From assembly GCF_029867415.1 (NCBI RefSeq), contig NW_026705157.1:806001-870000 (forward strand): DNA of 64,000 nt. Reading direction: 5' to 3'. A program made the translations under genes and the position numbers. Every line of letters begins with the position of its first letter. Position 1 is the first letter of the stretch. The DNA comes from Vicia villosa (taxonomy: Eukaryota; Streptophyta; Magnoliopsida; Fabales; Fabaceae). Positions 20,925 to 59,823 of the stretch are shown here, in pieces. The notes below the pieces were generated by a model. It worked only from the letters and a program-made list of their open reading frames with translations, was not told the origin of the DNA and made no database searches.

Positions 20925-23548
20925 TGTAACAGCCCGATTTTATTAGATATTTTATTTATTAGCTTATTTGTGTGTTTTATTAATTATTTGTTTATTTAAT
21001 TATTATGTGGTATTACTAATTAATTGAAATATCTAATTATATGCATAGTTGTGTTTTATGGTTTAATTAGGTTATTAGTAGCATACTATGTATTGGGCCT
21101 AATTAATAATTGGATGGGTGGGTAATAATATAACTAAGCCCATTAAGAGAAATATAGTAAGAAGAGGAAAACTAGGGTTTTAGAGATAACACAATTTGGG
21201 GAAAAGAAGAGAAGAGAAGAGAGGAGAAAGAACAAGAGAAGAGGAATTGTAGATTTCTTAAAGTTAGAAGGAGAAATTCAAGAGGTAAGGGTTTGAATCC
21301 AAGTTCTTGTAGGTTTATATGATTGGGTAATGTTGTGTATGCTTTCTATTCTTCCATTTCATGAATTTAGAAAATGATAGGGTTTATGTGAAATCAATTG
21401 GATTTTGTGGTTTGTTCATGTTCAATGTGTTGTATGGATGACCCATGGTTAGGAACATGTTTAGGAACCTTGTATATGTGCAAAATTCGTTTTCAATTGA
21501 TGTAGGGATTGTGTATGGGTTAATGGATATTGTATGAGGGGATTAGGGAAGAAAAATGGTGAAATCTGAGTTTTCACGCAGCCTGGGTCGACCTATGCAG
21601 AACCTGAGTCGACCTAAACAGTCCAGAATGCCAAAAATCTATTTTTCCTTCTGTTAGGTCGACCTAGAGGAGTTTTGAGTCGACCTAACTGAGTTTGCGT
21701 CGACCTAGAGGTTCAATTTTGAGCAGATTTTGTAAAGACCATAACTTTTGATCCGTAACTCCGTTTTATGCGTCGTTCGAAGCGTCGGGAAGCTAATGAG
21801 ATTTTCTACATGATAGAGTAGGGTTGATTGGCATTTGTTTAATTTAATTATGATGCTAATTGAAAATAACATGTAGTTATATGTGTATGTTATGGATGAA
21901 TCTTGTATGACTAATGTTCATGGATGCCTTATGAGATGTTAATGTCATGAACTATGTGATTGATTGATAAATGCTAATTGATGTGTGATATTGGATTGAA
22001 AGTCATGTTGTGTAATGTTGTGCAAAGTTGTAAATATGTGATTGTGTAGTTTAAGAGATAGAGAGATCGTCTTAAATGCATGAGTCTTATTTTGTTGCAC
22101 ACGTACACAAGCATGAGTCTTTGAAAGTGGCAATGTCGGGTAATCTTGCGAAGATTATTTGCTTGTCCCAAACCTAACGAGTATGGGGTTTGAAAGCTTA
22201 ACGAGTATGGGGCTTTGAGGTGGTTATCTTGTCCGTAGAGAGTGGCAATCGGCGTGACCGAAAATGATAACGGAGGGATCCACATGCATATCGCATTGAG
22301 TCACACTTGAGTCGCACGTGTCGGTGTGAAATGTTGTTGTTGGTGTGATTTATGTGATATGAATTGTGTGGAATGATGTTGGTGGATATGCATATATGTG
22401 AATTTGTGATTCATTTGATATGAATTAGTTGTTGTGTTATGAATGTGATATATGTGATTGAAACATATGTGATGTAGATGTGAATTTATATGTACTAATG
22501 ATATATGTATATATGTGTGGATATGTGAATCATGTTTGATTGAGGATGATACATGGGTAAGAGAGGTGATTACATGTATACTTGTAATATTAATGACACG
22601 ATTCCAATGATGTAAATATATTCTATGATGTTTCGTGAAATGGGATAGAGATGAATATGTGCATTTGGTGATATATGTTCATACTTGTGATACATCGGTG
22701 AATCTTATACATGTCTATATATTTGGAAAAACATGTGTATGTGATTATGTGATGATAACTTGTATATTTAGAATATGATTATGTTTGAATACAATTGTTA
22801 CTTCGTGAATGTTGTCGAAAAGGATATGTACTTAGAATCTACATGTTGGTGAAATATGATCATATACATTGTTTAGAAATCATGTTTGATTATGTGGAAT
22901 TGAATGAGCTAAGTTGTATGACATGAATATGTGAATCTTGATTAATTGCATGTTTATGTGAAGAGTGATGAATTCTTGAAATGTATTCTTGTTGTGTTTT
23001 ACATTTCCCATATTATGTTTATCTATAAGAAGTTGAATTCTCACCCTTCTGTTTGAATGTTATCCTTTGTTGGTAACGTGCAGGTTTCATGGATAGTGAT
23101 GCTTCGAAGAAGGCTTAGCTTAGAGATTTATATCTTTGTAAGGTGTCGTGACTAAGTAGTCACTTGTGCTATGGTCATATGTAACACATGGGGTTGGGTT
23201 TATATTTTATGACTTGTTGTTATGAGATATTTGTTTACTCGTACTGTATTTTGTATTTGAATACGTTATTTTGTTGATGAATGGCCTTGAGCCGAGATGT
23301 TGAGATATGGTGGATGATGTATGGGAATCATTCGACTTTACCATTTATTTGATGAGATGATTATTTCGCTGTGATTTGCATGTTGTTTTAAATCCCGTGT
23401 TATTTGGAAATGACCATTGCATGTTTAAAGATAAAATGTTTGTTTTATTTTGAAATATGTGTAACGCCCTTGTGAGATGCATGCTTCTTTACTCTGATTT
23501 ACGCAAATGTATGCCTTATTTGTTTAGTATAGAATTGGGGGTGTTACA
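20925..23548 (+). mobile_element. Solo LTR of a Ty3/gypsy (Tekay-like) element, 2624 bp
   Basis: It begins TGTAACAGCCCG and ends GGGGGTGTTACA, the same end style as the LTRs of the intact chromovirus (TGTAACGCCC...GGGTGTTACA). It is flanked by a 5-bp target duplication ATAAA (20920-20924 and 23549-23553). No internal region is present, so it arose by recombination between two LTRs. Five GTCGAC-centred motifs occur at 21587-21704, followed at 21741-21789 by a block (ACTTTTGATCCGTAACTCCG, then GCGTCGTTCGAAG) that aligns with the other Tekay-type LTRs here. The internal order also follows the intact LTR, but primary sequence is well diverged. Confidence 0.9.
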
Positions 23549-28100: not shown

Positions 28101-28490
28101 ACCAAAATTAGATGTACAGTTTTGATTAGAGTCGAGTTTTCATTTATTCAAGTCAACAATGTCGGAATTTGTGTCAAATTTTATCTGATTCGAATCAATA
28201 GTGTCATGATTTGAATCATACTTTGTGTGATTTGAATCAAATACACTATTGATTCAGATCATGAAAATCTGTGACTTGAATCAAACTGCCAAAGACAAAT
28301 TCTGAATTTTCACATTTATTCATTGATTCTAAATCATACATAACCTTGATTCGAATCACATTGTAGAGGGAGCCGTGCAAACACTTTTATTATAACATAA
28401 TAGCAACCAAGAGGTATACATCTTGATTAATGTGGGATTTAAGGAATACAAATAAATTTGAAATGCATATATTCCTATTGCAGTGGTGAA
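25191..28490. other. Intergenic TE-derived DNA with two palindrome-motif clusters
   Basis: I find no credible gene in these 3.3 kb. Visible structures are three tandem copies of an ATCTCAAGAACCAA unit near 25605-25690, a cluster of TTAATCGATTA-type motifs at 25950-26125, and a cluster of TGATTCGAATCA-type motifs at 28186-28358. A TATA-like TCTATTTATAG lies at about 25893. The mix suggests fragments of LTRs, but I could not place ends. Confidence 0.5.
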
Positions 28491-31049
28491 CTAGATTCTG
28501 ACATTGTCAACATAGATTTCGCGCACATGAGCGATCTTTTCCCAATCCTCGCCAGCAATCCTTTGGCATCTTGGGCTTAAAAGAGGACAGCCATCAATTT
28601 GCAAGACTTGTAAAGCAGTAAGGTGAACAAATCCAGACGGTAAATTTAGAAGGTTGGGACAGTACCGAATGTGTATGCGCATCAACGATGATAGATTCCT
28701 CACATAATCAGGCAGTGTCATGAGAGAAACACAGTCTATGATTAACAGAAACTGAAGACTACTTGCATAGAATTCAGGCTTGATTGGTAGAGTTCTCAGC
28801 TTGTGTAAACCTTTGATCGTTAACGAGCGAAGGCTAGAAAGACTTTCGATGCTCACATCCAATGATTCCATCTTAGGACAGTTTACAACTTCCAAATTTT
28901 CAAGTGCAGTGCAGTTTTTCAAATTACTTGGCAATGAAGCTAACTTAGCACAGTTGTGGATCCGTAGCGTTCGAAGGGAAGTGAGATTCTGAGTTACTTC
29001 GGTCAATGACACAAGATTTCTACAATGTTCAATTGTTAATGACCGAAGCGATGTTAAAGTACCAAGTTGTTTCTCAAAAACATTTGGAGAGGTTATCACC
29101 AAATGTCTAAGGGAAACTAAGTGATTAATTTTTTTTGGGAAGGTACTCATTTTTATGCATCCTGATAGCATCAATGCTTGTAGAAAATGAAGGCAACAAA
29201 TTGAATCCGGAAGGAACCGAAGTTCGTTGTTTCCGTTTAGATTTAGATACCTCAGAAGTTTCATGCTACTGATGCTATTTGGAAGATATGTTATTCCCGT
29301 GTAGCTCAAATCCAACGCGCGTAAGTAAGTCAAACCCGAGAGGACAACATTCAAATGATCTCCCAACTTTGCACACAAAAGAAGTGTTCTCAATTTTGGT
29401 AACTTGAGAAACAAACTTGGATCTTCCCTTATTTCTCCTCGATCCCGAAATGAAATGTGTCTTGTGCTTTCAGTCATACTTGAAGTATCAGAGTTAACCA
29501 TCAAATTTCCTGCCACTAAATTAGCAAGATCATGAAATAGATCATGCATTCTGCATTTTACTATTTCAGTTTTGTGATTCTCATGTACTATGTCGAATAT
29601 TGATCTTGACACAAACTCATTTATATACCAAGTTCCAACATCTTCTAATTGTTGATCACTGTTTGATGGTTGAATGAAACCTTGAGCCATCCATAAATGG
29701 ATTAAATCCTGCTTATCAAATTCTTTGCCTTTAGGAATTAATGAACAAAATGCAAAACATTCTTTAAATGGGGACGGTAATTGATCATAGCTTAACTTAA
29801 GAACCGACATTATACCGTCTTCGTTTTCAGACAGGTGACTCATACTCCAAGTATCGCTGTTTTTCACTGACGTCCAATAAGATTCCTCTTTGGTTCCAGA
29901 TAGTAAACCTCCCACGGTGCGTATCGCTAAAGGCACTCCACCGCATTTCATCAATATCTCTTCACCGATTTTAACAAGATTAGGATGTTGGACTTTTTCT
30001 CCTTCTCCAAACGCCCATTTCTCAAACAACGACCTGCATTCGCCAACAGCCAAAGCACCTAATTGATACAAACTGTTTTCATTTTCATTTTCATTTTCAC
30101 CCATCACGGACGCAGTACTTTTGTAGCGAGTCGTCGCTAGAATTCTGCTTCCTTTTGCAAATTTTCCTAACAACAATTTCTTCAGATCAAGCCATTCGAC
30201 TCGGTTACATTTCCAAACATCGTCTAAAACAAGTAAACATTTCTTCTCACTCAATTTATCATTAAGACACGATGACAGGAAATCTATGTCATAAACATTC
30301 TGATCAGAAGAACAATCTACAGCTCTAACAACTTTCTTTTGCCAAATCCTCTCTATATTCAAATCATCCGACACATCGATCCAAAGCTTCAAATCAAAAC
30401 CATTCTTCACTTTATCATCATCAAAAATTAAATTGACAAGTGTTGTCTTCCCTAACCCTCCTATTCCCACGACAGGAACAACAACAAAAGACTCATCATT
30501 ATTACTATTACCACAACCACCTAATAACCTTTCAATCACCCTTTTCTTATCTTCTTCTCTTCCAACAACCTCAGTGTAACATCTAACACTATCCCTTTGT
30601 CTATTAGAAGAATCAACAACTTGTTGTTGATCAAGTTCCTGCAAATGAAGACTACTAATCCGATTTGCTATATCATCAATTCTAACTATAATTTTCTTAA
30701 TTCTATCATCCATATCAGAAAAGAAAAACATGTTTCTTACCCAAGTAACAATTCTCATCTCAGCTTCCACTTTCTGCCTCAAAGCTTCAGCATTTATATC
30801 ATCCAACAGGTCTTCTGCATCGTGCAGTACATCCCGGAGCTTCATCAACCAATCCTCAACCAAGTGATTCTTCTCCTGCTTCTTTTCTGCATCTAGAAGA
30901 ACTGCTAATATTGCTGACATGTCGTTTCTTAGCTTGATGGAATCATCTTTGAAAGCAGATTGTAGATTATACTTGTTCATTAGTATAGTAGTGAGTTCTT
31001 CAAGAATTTTCTTCGCTGCTGATTTGCATACACTCATAGGGATTACCAT
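28491..31049 (-). CDS. CC-NBS-LRR (CNL) disease-resistance protein, RGA-type, 852 aa, single exon
   Basis: The product is an intracellular immune receptor. An Rx-type coiled-coil N-terminus (about 1-130) carries the EDVID-like stretch VEDWLMKLRD. The NB-ARC follows: P-loop GIGGLGKTT at 195-203, kinase-2 LLVLDDVW at 272-279, RNBS-B GSRILATTR at 300-308, GVPLAI at 371-376, RNBS-D CFAFCSLIP at 431-439 and MHD at 501-503. All key residues are present. Leucine-rich repeats run from about 530 to 835. Between RNBS-B and GVPLAI lies a small ENENENEN run (about 319-326) from a hexanucleotide repeat. The family norm is 850-1100 residues, so the LRR part is short but complete to a natural stop. The start MVIPMS is the first ATG; Met5 is a possible alternative. 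By family, ADP/ATP switching drives oligomerisation and cell death. The gene stands alone among transposons. Confidence 0.95.
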   Translation of the reverse strand: MVIPMSVCKSAAKKILEELTTILMNKYNLQSAFKDDSIKLRNDMSAILAVLLDAEKKQEKNHLVEDWLMKLRDVLHDAEDLLDDINAEALRQKVEAEMRIVTWVRNMFFFSDMDDRIKKIIVRIDDIANRISSLHLQELDQQQVVDSSNRQRDSVRCYTEVVGREEDKKRVIERLLGGCGNSNNDESFVVVPVVGIGGLGKTTLVNLIFDDDKVKNGFDLKLWIDVSDDLNIERIWQKKVVRAVDCSSDQNVYDIDFLSSCLNDKLSEKKCLLVLDDVWKCNRVEWLDLKKLLLGKFAKGSRILATTRYKSTASVMGENENENENSLYQLGALAVGECRSLFEKWAFGEGEKVQHPNLVKIGEEILMKCGGVPLAIRTVGGLLSGTKEESYWTSVKNSDTWSMSHLSENEDGIMSVLKLSYDQLPSPFKECFAFCSLIPKGKEFDKQDLIHLWMAQGFIQPSNSDQQLEDVGTWYINEFVSRSIFDIVHENHKTEIVKCRMHDLFHDLANLVAGNLMVNSDTSSMTESTRHISFRDRGEIREDPSLFLKLPKLRTLLLCAKLGDHLNVVLSGLTYLRALDLSYTGITYLPNSISSMKLLRYLNLNGNNELRFLPDSICCLHFLQALMLSGCIKMSTFPKKINHLVSLRHLVITSPNVFEKQLGTLTSLRSLTIEHCRNLVSLTEVTQNLTSLRTLRIHNCAKLASLPSNLKNCTALENLEVVNCPKMESLDVSIESLSSLRSLTIKGLHKLRTLPIKPEFYASSLQFLLIIDCVSLMTLPDYVRNLSSLMRIHIRYCPNLLNLPSGFVHLTALQVLQIDGCPLLSPRCQRIAGEDWEKIAHVREIYVDNVRI

Positions 31050-31124
31050 TATGTTTGCAGCTGGTGAAGAAGGGAAGAGATGAATACATATGTCTCAGAT
31101 TTCATAAGAGATTGCTCTTGATTT

Positions 31125-32254: not shown

Positions 32255-34453
32255 TGTAACGCCCATAAATGTGTTTTTCTGATTAATTGTGATGTTTGCT
32301 ACATTTTCCTAATTTTACCGTTTTCGAATCGAGTCAGTCGGTAAATATTAATTATGTTAATATTTTACTTATTACTTTCTATGTGTGTAATTATTATGTT
32401 TTGGGTGTTAATTGGTTAGAATTAAGGTTTAGTGACATTTGGGCCAAAATTAGAATTTATGAAAGTTGAGTGGGGGAAAATGAGAAGTAGAGAAATAGAA
32501 AGAGATATTTTGATAAAGAGAGAAAAAGAGATATTTTGAGATAGTAAGAAAGAAAGAGAACTTGGGGAAGAGAAGAGAAAGAAGAGAAAAACAAAGAGAA
32601 GAAGAGAGTTGTAGAATCCAAACCAAGCTAGAGCCAAGAATCCAACCAAGGTAAGGGGGATGAATATAGTTTATCTTGATTGTATGGTTCTTGTAGTTTT
32701 GTGTGTTTTGTTCTTGTTCTTACTCTTTTCCAAGCTTGTTCAACAATGGCAAATTGTGTGTTTTGTGAGTTTTGAAGATATAAACTTGATTTTGTGGTGT
32801 GTATGTGTACTATGATGATAGATATTCCCATGGATCATGTTTGTTTTTCATTTCTCCATGTTTTCTTGCTTATGAAGAAATTTAGGTCAAAGATGATATG
32901 TGATGATCCAACCATATGATAATCATGGATTAGGTGTATATATAGCATGTTTGTGTTGTATTGGTGTTGGGATGAAGGTTTAAATGGGTTTTGAATGGTT
33001 TAGAGGGGGCTGAGACGGTCTGTTGCAGAACTGGTTTTTCTGGGTTTACGCAGGTCCGCTGAGCGGAGGGGGTCCGCTGAGCGGAGGTTCTTTTGCAGGA
33101 ATCTCTGTCTGGGTCCGCTGAGCGGAGGTTCTGTATTTTCGTTTGGTGAATTCTCTGTCTGGGTCCGCTGAGCGGAGCTCAAGCGGACTGTGTGGAATTT
33201 TGTTTTTCCAAACTTTGTTTTGTTGTATCTTTTGAACCGTAGGTCGTTTCTACGCGCCGTTTGAAGTATTATGAGAACCCTTGAGTATGCTTTATGATAA
33301 AGAGGAGTGTGTTGGTGGTTGAATGATTTTTCATAAATGTATTTTGTGAAATGATATTTGCTAATCAAGTATGTTTTGACGGTATACGTGTGCTGTGTGA
33401 ATATGAACGCCTGAGTGGCAATTTTGATGATGTATCCGTATAGAATAATATAACCGGTGTGATGTAGATAGGTGACCGAGTTATATTGTTGTTGTTGTTG
33501 TTGTTATGTAATTGAGTCGTTTGTATGCACAGCATGACATTTCATTACGTTAATGGCGGAATGCTATTAACAGGTGGCCTGAATTGGCAATTATTACCAG
33601 TGGGAGCTTAATGCTCGGTAAAAAGGTGTATTTGCCCGAGTGGCAAGAGGTCATCAGTGGGGGCTAGATGCTCGATGACGGTTAGTCGTAGCTTACTGCT
33701 CGACAAAGGTGTATTTTCCTTAGGGAAAGAAGTCCCAGCATAATGCTCGGCAAGGTGTATTTGTCATAATGACAAGGAGGAGTTTTACTCCGGATTTGGT
33801 ACCACATGCATACGCATAGTCGAGTCTCATTCATCATCTTCGGTCTTTATAATTTATGTTATCATCCATGTACCGCATTATTTATATATTGATTGTGGTT
33901 GACTTATTGGATTATCTTGTTATATGACTCTTAATGATATTGTTGGAATTACTATATTGATCATGCTTTCATTATGAATTGTATTCTCACCCTTCTGCCT
34001 TAATGTTACCTACTCGTGGGTAATGTGCAGGTGATCCGCAAGTGTAGGTGCTCTCTTTGTAGTCGTCCGTTTTGGTGTCGTCCGCTCGTGATACGTAACA
34101 CCTAAGGGGGGGGATCGAACACTTATTTTGTAGATAATGCTTATAGGATCCTTTTGATGTATATTTGATCCTTTTTATGTATTCATATTATGTATTTTGG
34201 ATACCTTCTCATGCGATGTATTTTGGAAGGATGTTGTGGATATTTTGTTTACCGATGCATTTATACAAGTATGAATACATTCAGGTGTTTATGTGTATCC
34301 GTCCGCTTGATTATTTGTGTTACGCATCTTTTGCGAGTATGTTATGTTTGGTTATGTGGTTACTTAAGTGTAACGCCCTAATTGTTTTTATGAATTTAAT
34401 TTTTATACTCTGATATTTGTACCTATATGCCTGGGTAGAATTGGGGTGTTACA
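32255..34453 (+). repeat. 5' LTR of Tekay-type element
   Basis: This LTR contains four copies of TCCGCTGAGCGGA (33055, 33073, 33114, 33164), a perfect 6-bp inverted repeat around one G, plus a half site at 33182. A conserved block follows at about 33225-33268 (TCTTTTGAACCGTAGG, then TACGCGCCGTTTGAAG). A GTT microsatellite lies near 33490. Confidence 0.93.
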
Positions 34454-34457
34454 TTAG

Positions 34458-34469
34458 TGGTATCAGAGC
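34458..34469 (+). other. Primer-binding site (initiator-Met tRNA)
   Basis: TGGTATCAGAGC is an exact complement of the plant initiator-Met tRNA 3' end and lies four bases after the LTR end, as is usual for chromoviruses. Confidence 0.93.
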
Positions 34470-34571
34470 GGGTCGGTCTTGTCCGACCAAGTGTCGTGTC
34501 GTTTGGTCTAACAATTCTTGTGTTATTTTTTTTTGGGCTTACTTCTCTTGGTGTTATTGTGAAGTTTAGAG

Positions 34572-37500
34572 ATGGCTGGACGTAACGACGCTGCTATTGC
34601 TGCTGCATTGCAAGCTATGCCTGAAGCTATGCATACGGATGAGAATGCAAGGTCTCGGAGTCTAGCGACTTTCCAGAGGGAGAATCCTCCTGTGTTTAAG
34701 GGAACGCATGACCCCGAGGGAGCCTTGACTTGGATGAAGGAGATGGAGAGGATCTTTCGTGTGATGGATTGCACGCAAGAGCAGAAAGTTAGGTATGGCA
34801 CTCATCAGTTAGCTGTGGAGGCTGATGATTGGTGGCTGGAGACTTTGGCAAGGTTAGAAGCAACCGGTGAAGAGATTTCCTGGACGGTGTTCAAGAGGGA
34901 GTTTTTGAGGAAGTATTACCCGGAGGATGTCCGTGGGAAGAAAGAGACTGAGTTTTTGGCTTTGGTTCAAGGCAGCATGTCTGTGTCTGAATATGCGGCC
35001 AAGTTTAATGAACTTGTGAAATTCTACCCGCACTTTGTTGGTGAGGGAGCAGAATTTTCTAAGTGCATTAAGTTCCAGAATGGGTTACGTTCTGATATCA
35101 AGAAGGCGGTGGGGTATCAGAAGATTCGGGTGTTTCCAGATTTGGTGGACAGCTGTAGGATTTATGATGAGGATAATAATGCTCATCATAAGGTGATTAA
35201 TGAAAAGAGGAACAAAGGTCCGCAGAATCGTGGGACGCCGTATGATGGAGGGAAGGGTAAGCAAAAGATGAATTATGGACCAAGGTTTAGTGGGGGAGAT
35301 GCTCCTGCTAAGATTGTGTGTTTTAAGTGTGGTAAACCTGGCCATAAAAGTAATGTCTGCTTTAGTGACGCAAAGAAATGTTTCAAGTGTGGAAGGGTAG
35401 GACATGTGTCATCCGACTGTGCATCCAAAGGAGTTGTGTGTTTTAATTGTGGTGAAGAGGGACACATGAGCGGTCAATGTCAGAAGAAGAAAGTTCAAGC
35501 TGGTGGGAAAGTGTTTGCTTTGGCTGGAACTCAGACGGACAAGGGTGATCGACTGATCAGAGGTACTTGTTTTATTAATGGCATTCCTTTAATTGCTATT
35601 ATTGATACGGGTGCTTCGCATTGTTTTATAGCCGATGATTGTGTTAAAAGATTAGGTCTTGTTCTATCTGAATTGGGTGGTGAGATGGTTATCGATTTAC
35701 CAGCAATGGGGTCGGTGATTACTTCTCTAGTTTGTAAGAATCGTCCGGTATCAATCTTCGGTAAGGACTTTACTGTTGATTTGATTTGTTTGCCGATGAG
35801 CGAGTTAGACGTGGTTCTGGGAATGGATTGGTTGATGAATAATCGTGTCCATATCGATTGTTATCATAAGTTGGTGAGGTTTCCATTTCTTGAGAAGGAT
35901 GTGGAATTTGATGTCTTATCTACCAAGGAGTTGAATCGACTGTTAGAAGATGGGGCACAATTGTTTGGTGTGTTTGCATCGTTGACTGTGGAGAGTCGAG
36001 CTGCAGTTGGGGATTTTCCAGTAGTGCGAGAATTTCCCGAAGTGTTTCCTGAAGACTTTTCTGATGTGCCGCCAAAGAGAGAGGTGGAGTTTTCCATAGA
36101 TCTAGTTCCTGGTACGAGGCCTGTTTCTATGGCGCCGTATAGAATGTTGGCATCAGAGTTAGTGGAATTAAAGAAACAATTGGAAGAGTTGCTAGCAAAA
36201 CATTTTGTGAGGCCTAGTGTTTCACCATGGGGAGCTCCAGTGTTGTTGGTAAAGAAGAAGGATGGAAGCATGAGGTTGTGTATTGATTATCGCCAGTTGA
36301 ACAAGGTGACGATTAAGAATAAGTATCCGCTTCCTAGAATTGACGACTTGATGGATCAGTTGGTGGGAGCCAGTGTGTTTAGCAAGATTGATTTAAGATC
36401 TGGTTACCATCAGATTCGGGTGAAGGAAGAAGATATTCAGAAGACTGCGTTTAGGACTCGGTACGGGCATTATGAGTTTTTGGTGATGCCGTTCGGAGTT
36501 TCTAATGCACCTGGTGTGTTTATGGAGTATATGAATCGCATATTCCATGATCAGTTGGATAAGTTTGTTGTGGTCTTCATAGATGACATCTTGATTTATT
36601 CTAAGTCTCCGGAAGAGCATGAGGAGCATTTGCGTGTTGTGCTACAGGTTTTGAAGGAGAAGCAGTTGTATGCTAAGTTATCCAAGTGCGAGTTCTGGTT
36701 ATCAGCGGTGAGTTTTCTTGGTCATGTGATTTCAGGTAGCGGGATTGCAGTGGATCCATCCAAAGTAGATGCAGTGCTACAATGGGAGGTTCCGAGATCG
36801 GTTACTGAGATCAGAAGCTTTTTAGGTTTGGCAGGTTATTATCGAAGATTCATCGAAGGCTTTTCGAAGTTGGCACTTCCGTTAACTCAGCTTACTTGCA
36901 AGGGTAAGGCGTTTATTTGGGACATAGTTTGTGAAAGGAATTTTGAAGAGTTGAAGAGAAGGTTGACTTCAGCTCCGGTTTTGGTTTTACCTGATCCTGA
37001 GGAACCGTTTGTGGTGTATTGTGATGCATCGCATATGGGGTTAGGTGGTGTTTTGATGCAGGAAGGTAAGGTGGTGGCTTACGCTTCGAGGCAGTTAAGG
37101 ATTCATGAGAAGAATTATCCCACTCATGATTTAGAGTTAGTTGCGGTGGTTTTTGCATTAAAGATTTGGAGGCATTATCTCTACGGTGCAAGGTTCGAGG
37201 TCTTTAGTGGTCATAAGAGTTTGAAATACTTATTTGATCAGAAAGAGTTGAACATGAGACAACGTAGGTGGTTGGAATTCTTGAAGGACTATGACTTTAG
37301 CTTGAATTACCATCCTGGTAAAGCTAATGTGGTTGCCGATGCTTTGAGTCGGAAATCTTTGCACATGTCCGCTATGATGGCGGAGGAGTGGGAACTTTTG
37401 GAGCAGTTTCGTGATCTTAGTTTGGTATGTGAATTGACACCAGATAGTGTGAAATTGGGTATGTTGAAAGTGACGAATGACTTTCTGTCGACCGTTAGAG

Positions 37501-38960
37501 AGAGACAGAAAATGGATGTGAAACTTGTTAATTTGTTTATGGTGGCAAATCAAAGTGATGATGGCGACTTCAGAGTGGATGGTCAGGGTGTTTTGAGATT
37601 CCGTGGTCGAATTTGTGTACCTGATGATTCCGAGCTGAAAAAGATGATTTTAGAGGAAGGTCACAGAAGCAGTTTGAGTATTCATCCGGGAGCCAATAAG
37701 ATGTATCAGGATTTGAAGAAGATCTTTTGGTGGTCTGGTTTGAAAAGGGATGTGGCTCAGTTTGTGTATGCGTGTTTGGTATGTCAGAAGTCAAAAGTGG
37801 AGCATCAGCGTCCTGCAGGGTTGTTGCAACCGTTGGATATTCCAGAGTGGAAATGGGATAGTATTTCTATGGACTTTGTGACGAGTTTACCAAATACTGT
37901 GAGAGGTTTCGATGCGGTTTGGGTGATTGTTGATAGGTTGACAAAGTCTGCTCACTTTATTCCTATTAACATCACTTTTCCAGTTGCGAAGTTGGCTGAG
38001 ATTTATATCAAGGTGATTGTGAAACTACATGGTATACCGTTGAGTATTGTGTCGGATAGAGATCCAAGGTTCACATCAGATTTTTGGAAAGGTTTGCAAG
38101 AGGCTCTAGGTTCTAAGTTGAGGTTGAGTTCAGCTTATCATCCTCAGACAGACGGTCATACCGAAAGGACTATTCAATCGTTAGAAGACTTGTTGAGGGC
38201 TTGTGTTCTAGAGAAGGGAGGTTCGTGGGATACTTATCTTCCGTTGATAGAATTCACTTACAATAACAGTTTTCATTCTAGTATCGGAATGGCACCTTTT
38301 GAAGCGCTATATGGTCGTAAGTGTAGAACTCCACTGTGTTGGTTTGAATCGGGCGAGAGTGTGGTACTCGGACCTGAAATAGTAAGAGAGACTACAGAGA
38401 AGGTGAAATTTATTCGTGAGAAGATGAGAAGTTCACAGAGTAGGCAAAAGAGTTATCATGACAAGCGAAGGAAAGATTTGGAATTCCAAGCCGGTGATCA
38501 TGTATTCTTAAGAGTTACACCTATGACTGGTGTTGGACGAGCTTTGAAATCGAGGAAGCTTACTCCGCGTTTTATTGGTCCTTATCAGATATCGGAGCGA
38601 GTTGGCAAAGTTGCGTATCGGGTGGCGTTACCGCCAAGTCTTTCTAATCTGCACGATGTATTCCATGTGTCTCAGTTGAGGAGATACATTGCGGATCCGT
38701 CCCATGTGATTCAGATGGATGATGTGCAAGTGCGTGAGAACCTGACGGTTGAGACGATACCAGTGCGTATTGAAGATCGTGAGACTAAGACTCTGCGAGG
38801 CAAGGAGATCGCCTTGGTGAAAGTCGTATGGTTAAGTGCGGCAGGTGAGAGTTTGACATGGGAGTTGGAGAGCAAGATGCGAGATTCCTATCCTGAGTTG
38901 TTTATAGCAGGTAATCTTATTTTCGAGGACGAAAATCTTTTAAGTGGGGGAGGGTTGTAA
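34572..38960 (+). CDS. Ty3/gypsy chromovirus Gag-Pol polyprotein, 1462 aa
   Basis: The order is Gag-PR-RT-RNaseH-IN-chromodomain. The Gag capsid region is followed by three CCHC knuckles (CX2CX4HX4C), the first at 250-263. Protease DTGAS is at 345-349. Reverse transcriptase has FIDD at 669-672. RNase H has D818, E855 and D923 in place, but residue 880, normally the D of the DHKSL motif, is G (codon GGT at 37209-37211). Integrase has its HHCC zinc region, then D1101, D1162 and E1198 with D,D(35)E spacing. A C-terminal chromo-like segment (VRIEDRE to WELESKM) would bind chromatin and guide insertion. The stop TAA (38958-38960) overlaps the 3' LTR start. No frameshift or stop interrupts the frame. 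The altered RNase H residue may make this copy dependent on enzyme from others. Confidence 0.97.
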
Positions 38961-41151
38961 CGCCCATAAATGTGTTTTTCTGATTAATTGTGATGTTTGC
39001 TACATTTTCCTAATTTTACCGTTTTCGAATCGAGTCAGTCGGTAAATATTAATTATGTTAATATTTTACTTATTACTTTCTATGTGTGTAATTATTATAT
39101 TTTGGGTGTTAATTGGTTAGAATTAAGGTTTAGTGACATTTGGGCCAAAATTAGAATTTATGAAAGTTGAGTGGGGGAAAATGAGAAGTAGAGAAATAGA
39201 AAGAGATATTTTGATAAAGAGAGAAAAAGAGATATTTTGAGATAGTAAGAAAGAAAGAGAACTTGGGGAAGAGAAGAGAAAGAAGAGAAAAACAAAGAGA
39301 AGAAGAGAGTTGTAGAATCCAAACCAAGCTAGAGCCAAGAATCCAACCAAGGTAAGGGGGATGAATATAGTTTATCTTGATTGTATGGTTCTTGTAGTTT
39401 TGTGTGTTTTGTTCTTGTTCTTACTCTTTTCCAAGCTTGTTCAACAATGGCAAATTGTGTGTTTTGTGAGTTTTGAAGATATAAACTTGATTTTGTGGTG
39501 TGTATGTGTACTATGATGATAGATATTCCCATGGATCATGTTTGTTTTTCATTTCTCCATGTTTTCTTGCTTATGAAGAAATTTAGGTCAAAGATGATAT
39601 GTGATGATCCAACCATATGATAATCATGGATTAGGTGTATATATAGCATGTTTGTGTTGTATTGGTGTTGGGATGAAGGTTTAAATGGGTTTTGAATGGT
39701 TTAGAGGGGGCTGAGACGGTCTGTTGCAGAACTGGTTTTTCTGGGTTTACGCAGGTCCGCTGAGCGGAGGGGGTCCGCTGAGCGGAGGTTCTTTTGCAGG
39801 AATCTCTGTCTGGGTCCGCTGAGCGGAGGTTCTGTATTTTCGTTTGGTGAATTCTCTGTCTGGGTCCGCTGAGCGGAGCTCAAGCGGACTGTGTGGAATT
39901 TTGTTTTTCCAAACTTTGTTTTGTTGTATCTTTTGAACCGTAGGTCGTTTCTACGCGCCGTTTGAAGTATTATGAGAACCCTTGAGTATGCTTTATGATA
40001 AAGAGGAGTGTGTTGGTGGTTGAATGATTTTTCATAAATGTATTTTGTGAAATGATATTTGCTAATCAAGTATGTTTTGACGGTATACGTGTGCTGTGTG
40101 AATATGAACGCCTGAGTGGCAATTTTGATGATGTATCCGTATAGAATAATATAACCGGTGTGATGTAGATAGGTGACCGAGTTATATTGTTGTTGTTGTT
40201 GTTATGTAATTGAGTCGTTTGTATGCACAGCATGACATTTCATTACGTTAATGGCGGAATGCTATTAACAGGTGGCCTGAATTGGCAATTATTACCAGTG
40301 GGAGCTTAATGCTCGGTAAAAAGGTGTATTTGCCCGAGTGGCAAGAGGTCATCAGTGGGGGCTAGATGCTCGATGACGGTTAGTCGTAGCTTACTGCTCG
40401 ACAAAGGTGTATTTTCCTTAGGGAAAGAAGTCCCAGCATAATGCTCGGCAAGGTGTATTTGTCATAATGACAAGGAGGAGTTTTACTCCGGATTTGGTAC
40501 CACATGCATACGCATAGTCGAGTCTCATTCATCATCTTCGGTCTTTATAATTTATGTTATCATCCATGTACCGCATTATTTATATATTGATTGTGGTTGA
40601 CTTATTGGATTATCTTGTTATATGACTCTTAATGATATTGTTGGAATTACTATATTGATCATGCTTTCATTATGAATTGTATTCTCACCCTTCTGCCTTA
40701 ATGTTACCTACTCGTGGGTAATGTGCAGGTGATCCGCAAGTGTAGGTGCTCTCTTTGTAGTCGTCCGTTTTGGTGTCGTCCGCTCGTGATACGTAACACC
40801 TAAGGGGGGGGATCGAACACTTATTTTGTAGATAATGCTTATAGGATCCTTTTGATGTATATTTGATCCTTTTTATGTATTCATATTATGTATTTTGGAT
40901 ACCTTCTCATGCGATGTATTTTGGAAGGATGTTGTGGATATTTTGTTTACCGATGCATTTATACAAGTATGAATACATTCAGGTGTTTATGTGTATCCGT
41001 CCGCTTGATTATTTGTGTTACGCATCTTTTGCGAGTATGTTATGTTTGGTTATGTGGTTACTTAAGTGTAACGCCCTAATTGTTTTTATGAATTTAATTT
41101 TTATACTCTGATATTTGTACCTATATGCCTGGGTAGAATTGGGGTGTTACA
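38956..41151 (+). repeat. 3' LTR of Tekay-type element
   Basis: Nearly identical partner of 32255-34453. The same four TCCGCTGAGCGGA motifs lie 6701 bp downstream of those in the 5' LTR (39756-39877). The LTR is followed by ACTTC and then by the second half of the split SINE. Confidence 0.93.
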
Positions 41152-42539: not shown

Positions 42540-45500
42540 TGTCATACCCCAAAATTTGCCCATGCTATTTCTCATACACAAAACCAAATCAAAAGACAAA
42601 GCTCCAAAACACAGTCTCCCACACAGAAGTTCTAAACTAGGGTTTGAATAATTCAAAGGAAAATCATTGAATCAATGGCTCAAGGTGGTTCCATAGGGTC
42701 ACTAACATCCCAAAGTATCTCCATATAAAGTTTCAAGTCAAACAGAGCAAATTTAGTCCCTCAAATCCTGACTAGGTCAACAGTCGACTCCCAAGGGCAA
42801 AACAGTCATTATACAGTCAAAACTCAAGATATTTGGTCAACAACATTCTCATAACCCTAAAATCATCATTTGATCAAGGGTTGATCATGATGATGCAAGG
42901 AAAGATCAGAGAAGTCAAAAGTCAAAAGTTACTATTTTGGGCATGAACTGAAAAAGTCAACCAAACTTTGAAAATTCGCCAAATATTCATACTTCATCAG
43001 AAAAATTCCCACCAAAGCTCATGTTGAAGGGAATTCATTCCTCTATCCAATTGTCCAAGAATTAGAGCCCATAGATCAATGGTTCAAGAGATATGGCTTC
43101 ATACATTATAGGTCCTCTTCAAAAGTCAACAAAAAGACACTTTCTTCAAAAGATCATAAAATGAGAATGAAAAATGATTTTGATATGAGACCAAAGACAT
43201 TGGTTAGAGGACTCTCTAAGGTTTCCAAAATGTCCTGGAACACTTCCATACCTCAAAAATTGAGAGAGATAGACCTGGTCAAAGTTGGACTATTTTGGAG
43301 GGAAAAATATGAAAGAATTTGAACATTATTGCAAATGAGCCCAAGTTGTTTTGATTCAAGCTTGATCCACAAGTCATCTAAAGCCCAAGAACCAATTGCC
43401 ACGAATTTACTTGAATTATGTGATTTATTATGAGTTTTTATTCATATTAAAAGTGATTAAAAATCAAAATAAATCATGTAAATAACAAGAAATTTGATTT
43501 GATTCTATTTCCAATCAATTCAATCATCATTTAAACACAATATTGGATACAAATTTCGTGCACAAAAGGATTGGTAAAAGAAGATTGAAATTGAGCCATA
43601 ATTAGAAAGATTTCTTCATAATTTCAATCAAATTTTCATCACATTCAAATCAAGATTCAAAAGAGATTTGATCAATTTCTCTTGACCTAATCATTCCCCT
43701 ATATATACATATCAAGTCCATAGCACAAGGGTTACGTTTTTGCAGCCAAAGAGTGCCTATCCCGAGTCCAAAATCCCTCAAATTTTTCAAACTTCAATTC
43801 TGAAATCTAAGCCAATACAGGTGTTGCAAGTGATCAAGAATTGTTCCTCGAGCGTCATAAAACGATTCCCAATCGTTTTCGAGTTACCAAGCACCAAGAA
43901 CAAAGCACTGTAAGTCATACTTGGTCCGATCCTAATCTTCTTCGATTGCGTTGTTTCAGGCATCCACATCATAATCTAATGGGATATTTGTGTTTATCTT
44001 GATGTGTTTATTGTTTCTGGATGATTTGGTACATTGTTATGCCGTTTTGGGTAAACCACCATGTTAGGGTTCATACCTCCGATTTAGGGGTTTTTGATAC
44101 AGGTTTCGATAGATAAAATTGATGCCCTCATCAGGTTCGTAAGGATCGCACGAATTTAATGGTACCATCGCGAAATACTTTTGTCTTGGTTTGCCTATAT
44201 TCGCTATTTGCAGGGAAAGCATTTATAGCGCTTTTTCTTTTAAGCGCTGTAAAAAGAGGCAATCGCAGAAGTCCAAGGTAGGGGACGACAAGCTGGCGCG
44301 TTCTGATTGGCTGGTTCAAACCAGTTTTTGGCGCATCCAGGTTGTTGGAGCGAACGGATCTCATGCAACACGAAACACGCGTTAGCGTGTACCCTCGCAT
44401 CATCAGCCACTGGATCACATCTAAATGCCATCCAACGCTTCAGGCAGCGCAGGTCTATCATGGTCACACGCGTATCTGCCACACTGGAACGAAAGCTAAG
44501 TATTTTGCAATTTTTTTTAATTTTAATTACACAGCCACGTTTTTATATATATATATACTTTTGTTTTATTTATTGAATTTGTTTTCTTATATAAAAACTA
44601 TATAAAATTTTAATAAATACATTAATATCTATTATTTTAACCTTTTCATATATAACATCTAATATATGTTATTTGTAAAATTTTTCTTAAAATAAATGAA
44701 ATGATTATTTAAATTGTAAAAATCTTTAAAAATTCATATCTATTTTATTTTAATCCTAAAAATTTCCTAAAAATTATTTCTGTACTCGATTCTACTTTTA
44801 TCCCGATTTAATTAATTAGGTCGCGAGACCAATAATTGATTAAATCGTAGGCATTTTATTATTTAAACTATACCATAATTAGGGTTTGTGATGAACATTC
44901 CAACACACTAAAAATTTTATTTTCTTTTCTGTGCATTATCAGGGTTAGCAATATAATTCGCCTCGAGTGCGCGCCTTCAACAAACCTCGAAGATAAGTGT
45001 GCTGCTTTATTTAATTTTATTCTTTTAATTGATTCGTTGTTAGGGTTTGCCTTGCCTTCACCTATTTTCTGCCTTGTTTCAGGGTCAATCCTAAAGGCGC
45101 CTAACAACCATATCAGATCAAATTCGAACCAAAGCTAAGTATTCCCTATTTATTCATTATTAGTTTATTTCTCTTTCATTTTATTTACGTTAACCCTGAT
45201 TATCTTCGAATTAATAATACACTCACGCCTTGTCCGTTTCCTTGTCTGTTCTAATGATCAGAGTCAATGTTTCTGATAAACCTTTGCCCTCAACCCTGTC
45301 AGGCAAACACCAAAGCTAAGTACACTCTCTCTGTTTTACCTTTATTTCATTATTTTATTTTTCTTAATTAATGAAGTCTGCCCTCGAACCGATTATGCAC
45401 TCACCTTCAATTTGCTGTTTCTTCTTTTTTTGTCAGGTTTATCAATTGTCAAAGCTACGTTACTGGTAACCCTGTCTTAATATTTTCTCTGTTTTATTAT

Positions 45501-46459
45501 TACTTGTGTCAACCCTATTAAGGGATCCGCTGGTTACAATTCCCCTCTCCTCCGCTGGTTTCATTTTCCCCCTTCCCTTTATTGCTTTATATTATTATGT
45601 ACTGCGTGGTTAGTAATTTAGGGAGTGCAAGATTGTAATTAACCTAGAATCACTAATTTACAAGATAATATAATTTGAATTGAATCACGTGATTGATGCA
45701 CACACGCACGCTTTTTGGGTAACCCTCTCTGTTGCCTTGTTGCCTGTTGCCTGTTGCCTTTGTGTTTTGCAGAATAAGCCATGTCCCTCGAATTCGAGGA
45801 TACCTCAGCCATGTTGCCTCGATAAAAAGGTCACGACCCTAATGATGCTGCCTTCGATACACAAATGACCTCGACCCTCGGATGTTGCCTACGGAAAAAG
45901 GCTGAGGTATCTTCTGGCTGCCTACGAAATGGCTTATTCTGATCCTTGCCTTAGACTACCTGCCCTTCTATGGCATGGGACAGTCTTATGGCAAAGGATG
46001 CTTCGATGACCCTTCAACCTCCAAACGAAAGGCTTCCTGCCCTCTTATGGCAAGGATAGACCCTTTCATTCTGAAAGGCAAAAAGAGACCTATCATCTGA
46101 GTTTAAGGTAATTGCCCCTAATTGCCTTGCAATGCTCAAACCTTTTTATTATATTCTTTCTCATAATTTTTCAAAAGGGCAACGCTTATTCACAAGCTAA
46201 AGTCCCTATCTTTTTCATCTACTTTTTTTCTAAACAAACGAGCAAGCAAAGCAATTAAGAGCCCATGGAAAACCATGGATGCAAAGGGTGCCTTACACCT
46301 TCCCTTTGCATAAATTACCCCCCGAACTCAGTTTTCTTAAAAGGTTTTTTTCTGTTTCTTTTTGCCTTTCTGATTTGGTTTGGATAAAATAAAAGTCGGT
46401 GGCGACTCATGCTTAACCGCGACATTTCGATCAAATAAAAGTCAGTTCACCGTATTACA
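42540..46459 (+). repeat. 5' LTR of Ogre-like element
   Basis: This very long LTR has no convincing ORF. It has a CTATATATAC TATA-like site near 43702 and, at 45770-45941, a nested stem structure: outer arms CAGAATAAGCCAT/ATGGCTTATTCTG, inner arms GATACCTCAGCC/GGCTGAGGTATC, and a 14-bp palindrome CCTCGAATTCGAGG at 45786. Two AGCGCT motifs spaced by a T-rich stretch lie near 44229-44255. Confidence 0.92.
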
Positions 46460-46463
46460 GAAC

Positions 46464-46480
46464 TGGCGACTCTGCTGGGG
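46464..46480 (+). other. Primer-binding site, Arg-tRNA type
   Basis: TGGCGACTCTGCTGGGG lies four bases after the 5' LTR. This is the primer-site form I associate with Ogre elements, which use an Arg tRNA, and it supports the lineage call independently of the proteins. Confidence 0.8.
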
Positions 46481-47191
46481 ATATTTCGATTAAGAGGGGT
46501 TACCTTAAAAGTTTAGGATTCACTTAAATGTTTTCTATTGCTTGTTTTGCTTGCTTTACTTTTGCAGGGCTGTTTTGGGTATTCTGTTGTGTGAAAGATC
46601 CTAACCCGGATCTGAGTACCTTAGGTATGTGGCATGAGACCAGGGAGGCTGTACGACATGTATCGTTACGGTTGAACTGGTGGCCACCGTTAGTGCGACG
46701 CTTTGGTTTGTCCTGATGGCCCTTGAATCTGATCGAGGAGACATTTGGCTACCGCGTGGTGTCATGAGCACTAATTCGCCCTTAGAACCTTAGTCGAACT
46801 TGACTTTGGCTTATAAGAAGTAGCGAGATGGCTGGCTTCGGATTCCTGACTGAAGCCGGTTGATACTCGATGCTACACTCATTGAGATTGGACTCAAGGG
46901 ATGCTTTTGGCTGGCCGATTGAGTGCTATGTTGAGACAATGCCCACGAGAAAGATCAGGGATATGAGCACCATAGAACCTGGTTACTTTTTAGGACAGGT
47001 TGAACCAACTAAACGAAAGGAAGAAGGGTATATACCTATGAACTTCATGCAAGCCTACCCTTAAGGCAATTGTGTGACTTGTTTGTGTTTGTTAATTACT
47101 TGGCATCATAACATCATAACATCATGACATATCATATCCACTAACAAATTTCAAGGACCGAGAAATTTATATTTACACTGTTTTGTAGGAC

Positions 47192-48535: not shown

Positions 48536-48805
48536 AGAAATTCTAGTATTGTTATTATTATTCCTAGTTGTTTACATATTCATTTTTGTAAGCCAAAGTG
48601 GCAAAGAACCATAACTAAAGAACAATTTAATTATTATTATTATTATTAACAAAGCTTGTTCTTTCTTCCTTGTTTAAAGTAAATTTAAATTTTAAAGTCC
48701 TTGAAAACATTGCATATGCATAATCATATCATTCATAAAACATCGCATCACAGGTTTCATAAAAACAAATGCCTCATCTTTCCGCTGTTTATTTCAGTAA
48801 GAAAG

Positions 48806-49636: not shown

Positions 49637-49639
49637 TGT

Positions 49640-52495: not shown

Positions 52496-52682
52496 CAAAC
52501 AACATCTTCTCAAACTTCAACTACCAGATGGCATCCACAAGCCCATCTCCGACAAAAGTCCCTACTTCAAATAGGGCAAATTTCTTGGTATTCTTATGTT
52601 CAATCATCTTCTACCTTCAGATACCGACTGGCGCGCAAACCACTCTACATCTTCAGGTTTAAGATAATTGAACAGGGGCAGC

Positions 52683-57863: not shown

Positions 57864-59823
57864 TGTAACACTCCATTTATCCATCGTGAATTAAATAATA
57901 ATCAGAGTAATTTAAAATATTTAATCAACATTAGATGGGATGCTACATCATCAACGTTACATAATTTTGCTCAGATATTTAAACCAAAAGATACATAACA
58001 CTAGTTCGGATGAACCGATATCACAATCACCATAATGTTCAACTTCAATTTATAAATGCAACAAAATAAATTAATGCATAGTAATCATCATCTTCAAAAT
58101 AACTTAAAACATCGCAACAAAATCAAAGAGTGTTCATAATCCTCTCTAAAACTTCCAAAAACAAATCATAATATAGAATTTGCAAAACAAGCGTTCATCC
58201 CCGGTGTTACGTATCAAAGCAGAACCCGACTCAATCTATGCGATACTAGACGTCGCTCCATACCTCAGTTACTCCAATCTTTGTCACCTGCGCGTTACCC
58301 ACGTGGAGGTAACATTCAAACAGAAGGGTGAGATATCACAACAATATAATAAACCATATAATGGTGACTATACGACATATATCTCGTGCAGGTTATCACA
58401 ATTCAGGCCTCACAAGTTATATAATCATCACCAATTCTAATACACATCAACATACACAAGCACACTCATTTCATCATGCAATTTATGCAATTCGTATTAT
58501 GGGACTGACTCAACTTCATGCATGTGGTACCAATCAGGGCATAAGCCCTCATCATTACGCCAATACAGGCCATCTTACGCCAATACATGCCATCTTAAGG
58601 AACACAAGTCATGGTCAAGAATGCATGCGACAATTGACATGCATCAACATAGAAGGCAATGACATTTCGTCTTAACAATATCACGCCAATATATGACATC
58701 ATCATCTTCATCATACAACACATCGTGCCAAACAATTGCATCAAATCATACAATGTTATTATCGTCGCATATTACACAAAATACGCACGAATAAGCATAA
58801 TTTATATTGAATAATTGACTACTGGTTTCTAATATATTATTAGAAGATAGAAAATAATTTTAGCTTTTCAACGGTCCAAACGGCGCGTCAAACGGACACC
58901 CGAGTCAAAAGATATGTCTTTTTAAACTTTTAGAAATTTTTCGTTTCAACACAGTGGTAACCGGTTACCATAATTGGGTAACCAGTTACTACCTCTAGTA
59001 ACTCAAAAATGAATGCTACTGTCTTTGCTGGTAACCAATTATTCTTTTTAAAACTCAAATTTGCATGCTACTACTTCTCTTGGTAACCGGTTACCATAAC
59101 TGGGTAACTAATTACTCAATTTCAAAAATTAATTTTTACGCCACTGTTTCATTAGGTAACCGGTTACCATAACTGAGTAACTAGTTACTCTGAGTTCAGA
59201 GCCAAAAATCTGCTATTTTTTCTGTTACGAAATTTCAACCTTTTCCATCCAAAATCACTTTCATACACACACTAAAACATGTAAAATCATGAAATCATCA
59301 ACACACATCATATCCAACAATTCTAACACAAACATCATACCAACTTCATCATTCGTAATCAAATTCAACAATCACTTTTTACAACAATCTACCCCGAAAC
59401 TTAACATTTCAACATCTACACATACCCATTATTATACCACCTATTAGAAAGTTGGAACCCCATCCCAACCTTAGCAATTTTCTTCAAAAATCTCTCTATC
59501 AATGGAGGTTCCTCTTTAGCCCTAGCTCTGCTTCTCTATGCTTTCACGATCTCTTAAAACTTCTATAATTTTTTCTATTTTTCTAATTCCCTCTTCTTAG
59601 TTAAGCTTCACTAATTCATTCATACTAGTGGGCTTAAACCACCCCCACTGGTACTCATACTAACACATCATTATGACCCAACTAATTAAATATTCTATAT
59701 TCTATTATTATTAATATTTTTCAACCATATAATATAATTTCATAATACTAATAAATCCTAATTTCACCAAATAATTCATAATAAGGCAATTAAATAATTA
59801 AAGAAAATATAACGGCCGTTACA
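57864..59823 (-). repeat. 3' LTR of the truncated Tekay-type element, 1960 bp
   Basis: This LTR contains three perfect GGTAACCGGTTACC palindromes (58956, 59082, 59155) and related motifs GTAACCAGTTAC (58978) and GTAACTAGTTAC (59177). Left of these (downstream on minus) lies TCTTTTGACTCGGG, then GACGCGCCGTTTGG at 58883-58918. This is the block shared with the LTRs at 20925 and 32255. Confidence 0.88.

Follow-up and report, generated by a model that had tools for sequence, protein, structure and literature searches.

Palindrome-bearing cassettes exchanged at one slot of long Ty3-type LTRs in Vicia villosa

In a 64,000-nt stretch of the Vicia villosa genome (contig NW_026705157.1, positions 806,001 to 870,000; hereafter, the window), both long terminal repeats (LTRs) of a retrotransposon at 32255-41151, as well as two further LTRs that start at 20925 and 57864, carry arrays of short palindromes at a fixed place, the slot, directly 5' of a conserved sequence block. 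Comparison with other LTRs of the same genome provides good support for the conclusion that a cassette of about 300–400 bp, together with its motif class, travels as a unit between LTR backbones. The palindromes themselves are a real, strongly non-random feature of the slot. To judge from the sequences, the slot could be an exchangeable cis-regulatory module made of sites for host factors, corresponding in Ty3/Tekay elements to the palindromic boxes of Sireviruses, an interpretation to which we give about an even chance of being correct.

The element at 32255-41151 encodes gag-pol of the Ty3 type, with the reverse transcriptase (RT) preceding the integrase. A profile search of its one long frame, made for this element alone, returned gag-pol domains only, in the order Retrotrans_gag, RVP_2, RVT_1, RNase H, Integrase_H2C2 and SH3_Tf2-1, and no chromodomain family at E ≤ 0.001 with general rather than lineage-specific profiles. 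The label Tekay comes from the original prediction; here, the element is placed as Ty3-type by domain order alone. Its LTRs are 99.8% identical over 2199 bp, and the element is therefore young.

Exchange of cassettes between LTR backbones

LTRs were gathered by the conserved block, with palindromes ignored, which yielded 1553 places in the assembly used for all genome-wide counts (one V. villosa assembly, 1888 contigs, 2,034,964,285 bases) and 0 places for a reversed control. The LTR sample came from one pseudomolecule and the window. From the first ~100 block places, 30 were cut as loci and 40 were chosen of the rest, a choice that skipped many apparent near-duplicates; of the 120 places with the F-type variant of the block, 18 further LTRs were sampled. 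Loci L001-L003, in which the block is absent, were dropped, as was L004, which repeats L005, from the class counts onward. The 74 sequences, including the three window LTRs, were reduced to 39 non-redundant ones (less than half of the 10-letter words in common in the 300 bp 5' of the block). Positions such as −300 or +350 are relative to the conserved block, and some bins near the ends of loci may fall outside the LTR. The motif classes, A to G, were set post hoc, after the sequences had been inspected.

Alignment of 56 LTRs gave 1540 pairs, in which the flanks were considered related if identity was at least 85% on both sides (best 150 bp between −800 and −300, and 0 to +150). Among the 58 pairs of different classes with related flanks, the slot was less than 50% identical in 56 and more than 80% identical in none; the 91 same-class pairs with related flanks had a mean slot identity of 0.79, with 63 pairs above 0.8 and 14 below 0.5. 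The 56 exchange pairs involve 27 LTRs, in the combinations B-C (27), C-D (16), B-D (5), A-C (4), A-E (2) and A-B (2). On the side of the block, the edge of the exchanged stretch is sharp, with 98–100% identity from −4 to +6 and single variable positions, down to 58%, further in. Identity before −4 is patchy, a few positions reaching 96–100%, which indicates that the cassettes share some letters near their 3' ends. The left edge is variable: of two displayed pairs, one has it near −300 and the other near −400. With sliding centers applied to all pairs, no other part was as often unrelated between related flanks as the slot (34% at −200, and no more than 15% outside the slot); when only different-class pairs were considered, 46 of 47 were unrelated at −200.

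Cassettes and flanks showed a double dissociation. Blastn identity multiplied by coverage was determined for the cassette, the 5' flank and the 3' flank, with the backbones typed by the context of a donor-like site described below. For LTRs of the same class on different backbones, the three values were 0.51, 0.18 and 0.03 (60 of 71 pairs used), and the cassette was the closest part in 51 of the 60 pairs. For different classes on the same backbone, they were 0.02, 0.51 and 0.38 (60 of 154 pairs). The corresponding values were 0.63, 0.63 and 0.58 if class and backbone were the same (60 of 108 pairs) and 0.01, 0.12 and 0.02 if both were different (60 of 297 pairs).

The linkage of the two flanks was followed by typing the sequence context of the donor-like site (T) and that of the acceptor-like site (U); 32 of 73 loci were typed on both sides, the other 41 not. 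The pairing of T and U was kept in all 32 doubly typed loci (T1-U2 in 10, T2-U1 in 16, T3-U3 in 6), and in 14 of 14 in the non-redundant set. The cassette between the linked flanks was B or C for T1, A, B, C or E for T2, and always A for T3. This linkage of the flanks across a variable cassette indicates that, for the most part, the cassette is replaced like an island. The original prediction had offered replacement of palindromes by concerted exchange as one of two explanations; exchange is indeed involved, but its unit is the whole cassette rather than the single palindrome.

Two other routes to the observed diversity were considered. Independent change of the palindromes by point mutation was rejected, because the 15 displayed different-class pairs are 25–51% identical in the −200 and −100 bins and because no cassette homology group contains more than one class (class A splits into three groups). 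Mosaicism with free breakpoints is disfavored by the flank linkage in 32 of 32 loci, yet other parts of the LTR are mosaic too.

Palindromes and motif classes in the slot

The 300 bp 5' of the block contain, in the 39 LTRs, 80 palindromes with an arm of at least 5, compared with 24.5 ± 5.3 in dinucleotide shuffles. For palindromes containing CpG, the numbers are 54 versus 5.6 ± 2.1, and the highest count among 150 shuffles was 11; in three further regions of these loci, such palindromes number 0, 0 and 5. Thus, the excess over shuffled controls on which the original prediction depended was upheld. Also, arrays are not absent from most of the block-bearing LTRs: copy numbers range from 0 to 8, with at least three copies of a class motif in 27 of the 39 LTRs, two in 8, one in 2, and none in 2. 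In a test blind to symmetry, the top over-represented 8-letter word was palindromic (score at least 0.7) in 21 of 39 slots versus 1 of 39 for each control region. The mean repeat score was highest in the slot (19.8), and the three control regions are repetitive as well (10.8, 14.6 and 15.6). Counting the copies of one 6-bp palindrome per LTR, a count that ignores odd and long palindromes, gave a striking result only for the LTR at 20925 (0 of 1000 shuffles as high) and weak ones for those at 32255 (42 of 1000) and 57864 (65 of 1000).

Genome-wide, TCCGCTNAGCGGA was found at 14021 sites (18 for the reversed control) and GTTCGCGNCGCGAAC at 3128 (control 0), and 395 matches of GTAACCGGTTAC, several per LTR being counted, were located 10–150 bp 5' of TTTTGACTCG (control 0). 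The pooled observed-to-expected ratio of CpG was 0.10–0.30 from −700 to −300, 0.60 at −300, 1.12–1.20 in the last 200 bp of the slot (pooled G+C 0.43–0.47), 1.92 over the block, and 0.68–1.12 farther 3'. By this profile, the slot is distinct from its 5' side, not from its 3' side. At one locus (L074), an apparent simple repeat 3' of the block holds 106 palindromes and dominates the total of the downstream control region (135 versus 51.3 shuffled). Arrays of the near-palindrome TGATT[C/T]GA[A/C]TCA are also present in the window at 61249-61481 (8 copies) and 28186-28358 (4 copies), with no block nearby; the habit of forming palindrome arrays may be shared by other repeat families.

The sampled LTRs contain about six distinct motifs. 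Class A (TCCGCT[G/A]AGCGGA) is present in 9 of the 39, class B (GTCGACCTA) in 11, class C (GTTCGCGCCGCGAAC) in 7, class D, the class-C dyad with a central G, in 4, class E (CGCCGGGCGA, only near-palindromic) in 4, and class F (GTAACCGGTTAC with GGAACC..GGTTCC forms) and class G (GTAATCGATTAC) in one each. CCG/CGG is present in class A and absent from B, F and G. Several classes are therefore found at one slot, as expected from the original prediction that the position is kept while the palindrome differs between families. The 18 LTRs with the F-type block, classified by eye, comprise 13 with F-type or related GGAACC motifs, two with class-B cassettes (L089, L106) and three with non-palindromic direct repeats (L096, L098, L100). 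Three loci (L013, L028, L036) have a second or diverged copy of the block about 200–280 bp 5' of the first. The two LTRs of an element agree with each other in all 10 comparable pairs, part of them compared by eye (the window element, L005/L006, L008/L009, L016/L017, L020/L021, L023/L024, L028/L029, which has no class, L030/L031, L032/L033 and L074/L088). RT identity to the window element is 97–98% for class A, 85% for class C, 79% for class E and 74% for L087, whose LTR is class B by eye; RT was recovered over the whole query in 5 of 12 fetched regions.

The arrays of the window itself were largely as first described. All eight copies of TCCGCTGAGCGGA were located, four per LTR of the class-A element, and this motif is confined to these two LTRs within the window. 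The three copies of GGTAACCGGTTACC and their variants are also where they had been reported in the LTR at 57864. The five GTCGAC sites of the LTR at 20925 are present too, but their symmetry is mostly limited to the 6-bp core, the copy at 21655 being the sole one in which it extends to 12 bp. Five further GTCGAC sites are scattered over the window (3985, 37487, 42783, 52926 and 62739). The block lies 3' of the array in all three LTRs, as predicted, with the correction that in the LTR at 57864 it ends with CGTTTGGA, not with TTTGAAG.

Symmetry and constraint differ among the classes. In 36 class-F sites, the four outer arm positions form complementary pairs in 94, 92, 61 and 56%, compared with 73, 89, 36 and 29% after permutation; the co-variation is significant at three of the four positions (the second, p = 0.09, is not), though the copies of one array are not independent of each other. 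Compared with one class-C LTR, three class-D cassettes carry class-C dyads as pairs, spacer included, in the opposite orientation (31–37 bp, 86–94%), so that the element, if it works, works in either direction. Motif columns of class B are conserved at 0.979, compared with 0.879 for other repeated words (23 of 27 sequences); 4.7% of 127 control words score as high.

Candidate functions of the slot

The slot, directly 5' of the block TTTTGANYCG, holds a 300–400 bp cassette in which one short and mostly palindromic motif with a CpG is present in up to eight copies. If the slot is a regulatory module, the palindromes would be sites for dimeric host transcription factors. Exchange would probably occur when reverse transcription switches template between two co-packaged RNAs, for which the conserved block could be a common landing site. 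A new cassette might place an otherwise successful LTR under the control of another factor or let it escape silencing directed against the old sequence. For ONSEN, LTR recombination has been attributed to reverse transcription of two co-packaged RNAs (PMC5668417), which supplies a likely mechanism of exchange; it was seen there within one family during a burst, and a modular cassette was not met in the accessible part of that paper.

Other roles follow if the slot is part of an RNA. A 5' splice-site-like AGGTA[A/T]GG is present between −700 and −250 in 28 of the 39 LTRs, on otherwise differing backgrounds, and 27 of the 28 occurrences of AGGTAAGG in the 39 loci lie between −700 and −300. Relative to the expectation from base composition, ATG is depleted in the 150 bp before this site (45 versus 103.7) and enriched after it (227 versus 106.3). 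At least one acceptor-like word (CTCACC or GCAGGT) is found from +577 to about +1410 in 31 of the 39 LTRs. The acceptor-like element (33986-34032; 58284-58341 on the minus strand; 23026-23085) includes a stem whose pairs change together across LTR families: in 16 sequences, three of six pairs changed on both sides, and the covariation score was reached in 1 of 500 shuffles. With one side slid by −3, covariation was slightly higher (0.306 versus 0.285) and pairing lower (74.7 versus 89.6%). From these elements, we infer that the slot is located in a leader intron of the LTR.

Retroviral dimer-initiation palindromes pair between genomic RNAs and lie downstream of the splice donor, and in 28 of the 39 V. 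villosa LTRs a site that is donor-like by sequence lies 5' of the slot. The palindromes could act in RNA, as leader repeats 3' of a splice donor that pair between or within genomic RNAs for dimerization or packaging. Any self-complementary sequence would then serve, symmetry would be kept while the sequence changes, and each class would prefer pairing with itself. We regard this alternative as unlikely. In its favor are both splice-like sites with the ATG bias, the symmetric co-variation of the class-F arms, and the folding of the cassettes: 11 of 15 reach z ≤ −2.4 (mean about −2.7), compared with 4 of 15 at z ≤ −2 for a far-upstream control (mean about −1.2). Changes that keep a G-U pair also outnumber those that break pairing (18 versus 7 for classes A, C/D, F and F2, 80 local sequences). 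On the other hand, the palindromes of classes A and C/D have an unpaired central base, class B pairs over 6 bp only, and three of the 15 cassettes (L045, L007 and that of the LTR at 20925) fold no better than z = −0.8. The wobble excess, too, is uneven. Local counts of C>T and G>A are 6/0 for class A, 3/2 for C/D, 6/5 for F, 3/0 for F2 and 0/40 for the class-B core; it is thus missing in class F alone and reversed in class B, although 38 of the 40 represent the common form of that class. For class A genome-wide, 11759 C/T forms (control 292) compare with 14748 G/A forms (control 8584), with perfect copies in both numbers; this comparison is confounded by solitary TCCACTGAGCGGA, apparently another repeat, which accounts for many of the listed G/A forms. 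A more specific version, in which the cassettes are exchangeable self-recognition tags for class-specific RNA dimerization and co-packaging, so that a swap would move an element between packaging or mating groups and splicing would strip the tag from the mRNA, appears doubtful and quite improbable.

Several observations weigh against a regulatory module, and some of them favor neutral turnover, that is, a fast-mutating, recombination-prone stretch in which tandem duplication and hairpin-driven mutation make arrays and the shuffling of cassettes serves no function. Motif conservation does not reach significance in class C (13 of 17 sequences), where 39.8% of 118 control words score as high, and it is borderline in class A (p = 0.045, 6 sequences, without a control-word comparison). 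Classes B and E are symmetric only in part, and the slots of L045, L096, L098 and L100 hold non-palindromic direct repeats around ACAG[C/T]ATTTTCG. High CpG extends 3' of the block. As for exchange, 16 of the 56 exchange pairs are C versus D, which have the dyad in common; none of the 15 displayed different-class pairs differs in the cassette alone; and near +350, 24 of 78 different-class pairs with related flanks are unrelated, and hence LTR parts other than the slot have been exchanged as well. Finally, a correct splice-site reading would mean that the slot is transcribed, and a role in RNA would then be conceivable. Neutral turnover would account for the variable copy number, the non-palindromic fillings, the mosaicism elsewhere in the LTR, the top repeat score of the slot and the class-C result. 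However, palindromic words concentrate in the slot even though the neighboring regions are repetitive too, class-B motif columns are unusually conserved, and the flanks do not reshuffle in the typed loci, so that we rate this explanation as improbable.

A further possibility is that the palindromes chiefly serve recognition by the host, with hairpins feeding small-RNA silencing and exchange as the escape. Palindrome-rich LTR regions of Sireviruses have been called small-RNA hotspots, with high variability, in papers citing Bousios et al. 2016 (PMC5311732, PMC10760457; accessible parts). But silencing alone would favor loss of the palindromes, and a class motif is retained in 37 of 39 LTRs, so that this possibility seems very unlikely.

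The original prediction also envisaged a matching DNA-binding factor belonging to each family. A precedent exists in the VANC proteins, which recognize motif arrays of VANDAL transposons and lift silencing, and in the available part of that work, as in V. villosa, short motif arrays differ between related transposon families (PMC5735166). There, however, the binder is encoded by the element, and the VANC21 motif printed in that part, YAGTATTAY, is not palindromic. In V. villosa, the cassettes occur on different backbones, which would tend to part a site from its factor, and the one long frame of the window element, the element to which the domain search was applied, shows gag-pol domains only. 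A factor encoded by each family therefore appears extremely unlikely, and a shared pool of host factors fits better.

Window features and related systems

The coordinates of the window features are compiled in Table 1. The extent of the class-A cassette was set by analogy. The LTR at 57864 adjoins 284 bp (59881-60164) with 74% identity to 38893-38610, the 3' end of the coding region, and thus appears to be a truncated element's 3' LTR. A 26-bp tandem array (60285-60774) is located beside this class-F element, and a 139-bp tandem array is found at 51941-52492. Elsewhere in the window, a Ty1/copia element (7176-12340) has a 1585-aa open frame and 233-bp end repeats that are 99% identical; a disease-resistance-type NB-ARC/LRR frame with Rx N-terminal and winged-helix domains occupies 28491-31094 on the minus strand; and a repeat pair 10.1 kb apart (42540-52982) flanks an open reading frame (ORF) with DUF7745 (47189-48535).

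Table 1. Features of the palindrome-bearing LTRs and of the class-A element in the window
Feature	Position	Strand	Evidence
LTR with class-B cassette, end approximate	20925..23548	+	Sequence inspection
GTCGAC x5 (21587, 21608, 21658, 21679, 21699), mostly G[A/C]GTCGACCTA	21587..21704	+	Word search
Conserved block of the LTR at 20925	21746..21782	+	Word search
5' LTR, class-A element	32255..34453	+	99.8% identity to 38956-41151; primer-binding-site word TGGTATCAGAGC at 34458
5' splice-site-like AGGTAAGGG, putative donor, GT at 32651	32649..32657	+	AGGTAAGG position and ATG bias
Exchangeable cassette, class A	32930..33229	+	By analogy, left edge approximate; other LTR pairs break near −400/−300, homology resumes at −4 from the block
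TCCGCTGAGCGGA x4 (33055, 33073, 33114, 33164)	33055..33176	+	Word search
Conserved block TTTTGANYCG...GCGYCGTTYGAAG, right edge of the slot	33230..33266	+	Word search, pairwise edge comparison
3' splice-site-like CTCACCC...GTGCAG/GT with short hairpin, putative acceptor	33986..34032	+	Acceptor words, hairpin pair counts
gag-pol frame, class-A element (gag, protease, RT, RNase H, integrase zinc-binding, SH3)	34563..38960	+	ORF and domain matches
3' LTR, class-A element, cassette identical in kind to that of the 5' LTR	38956..41151	+	99.8% LTR identity; palindromes 39756-39877
TCCGCTGAGCGGA x4 in the 3' LTR (39756, 39774, 39815, 39865)	39756..39877	+	Word search
Conserved block, 3' LTR of class-A element	39931..39967	+	Word search
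LTR with class-F cassette	57864..59823	-	Sequence inspection
Conserved block of the LTR at 57864, variant TTTTGACTCGGGTGTCCG...CGTTTGGA	58875..58910	-	F-type block search
GGTAACCGGTTACC x3 (58956, 59082, 59155) and variants at 58979, 59178	58956..59189	-	Word search

Palindromic boxes in Sirevirus LTRs and variable CpG islands in Del LTRs were known before. The repeated-motif (RM) boxes of Sireviruses, in the part of the description available, are arrays of a short palindrome that differ between elements, lie mostly in the upper half of the LTR and are CpG-rich, with an unknown binder; two of their motifs, CGGTCGACCG and ACAATCGATTGT, resemble classes B and G, respectively (PMC2829016). The slot arrays are alike in that a short palindrome is repeated within the LTR and differs between elements. 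Unlike the Ty1/copia Sireviruses, however, the host element is Ty3 by domain order. Moreover, the motif of RM boxes is present in 8 or more copies and, with a single element as the exception, has a CGG-CCG core, whereas most classes described here are without that core and 37 of the 39 LTRs carry 1–8 copies; exchange of cassettes between related LTRs, seen here, was not met in that portion of the RM account (PMC2829016).

The LTRs of Del, which is Tekay-type, have a variable 5' CpG island, for which the authors suggest escape from host control (PMC4029996). Eudicot Del elements are in a cluster in which the island is absent or rare, and the accessible text names neither palindromes nor exchange. 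In human HERVH LTR7, blocks with transcription-factor motifs were swapped between subfamilies by recombination, with the effect on expression tested (PMC8912925). The module described here is similarly exchanged between LTR subfamilies; LTR7 differs in that several blocks rather than one slot are involved, and palindrome arrays were not met in the part of that paper that was available. Palindromes are reported to be frequent insertion sites of LTR elements (PMC6911290). Among the titles and starts of abstracts listed in searches of the open-licence literature, no description of palindrome cassettes exchanged at one slot was found, which is weak evidence of novelty.

The natural swaps in V. villosa have been repeated many times, and they include related LTRs that differ chiefly in the cassette as well as one cassette class on unrelated LTRs. 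Natural pairs of this kind, such as L040/L051 and L024/L044, have other differences too. Function thus becomes directly testable through a comparison of such LTRs for expression, methylation and small RNAs. The exchange suggests a route by which old LTR families may renew their control region in one step.

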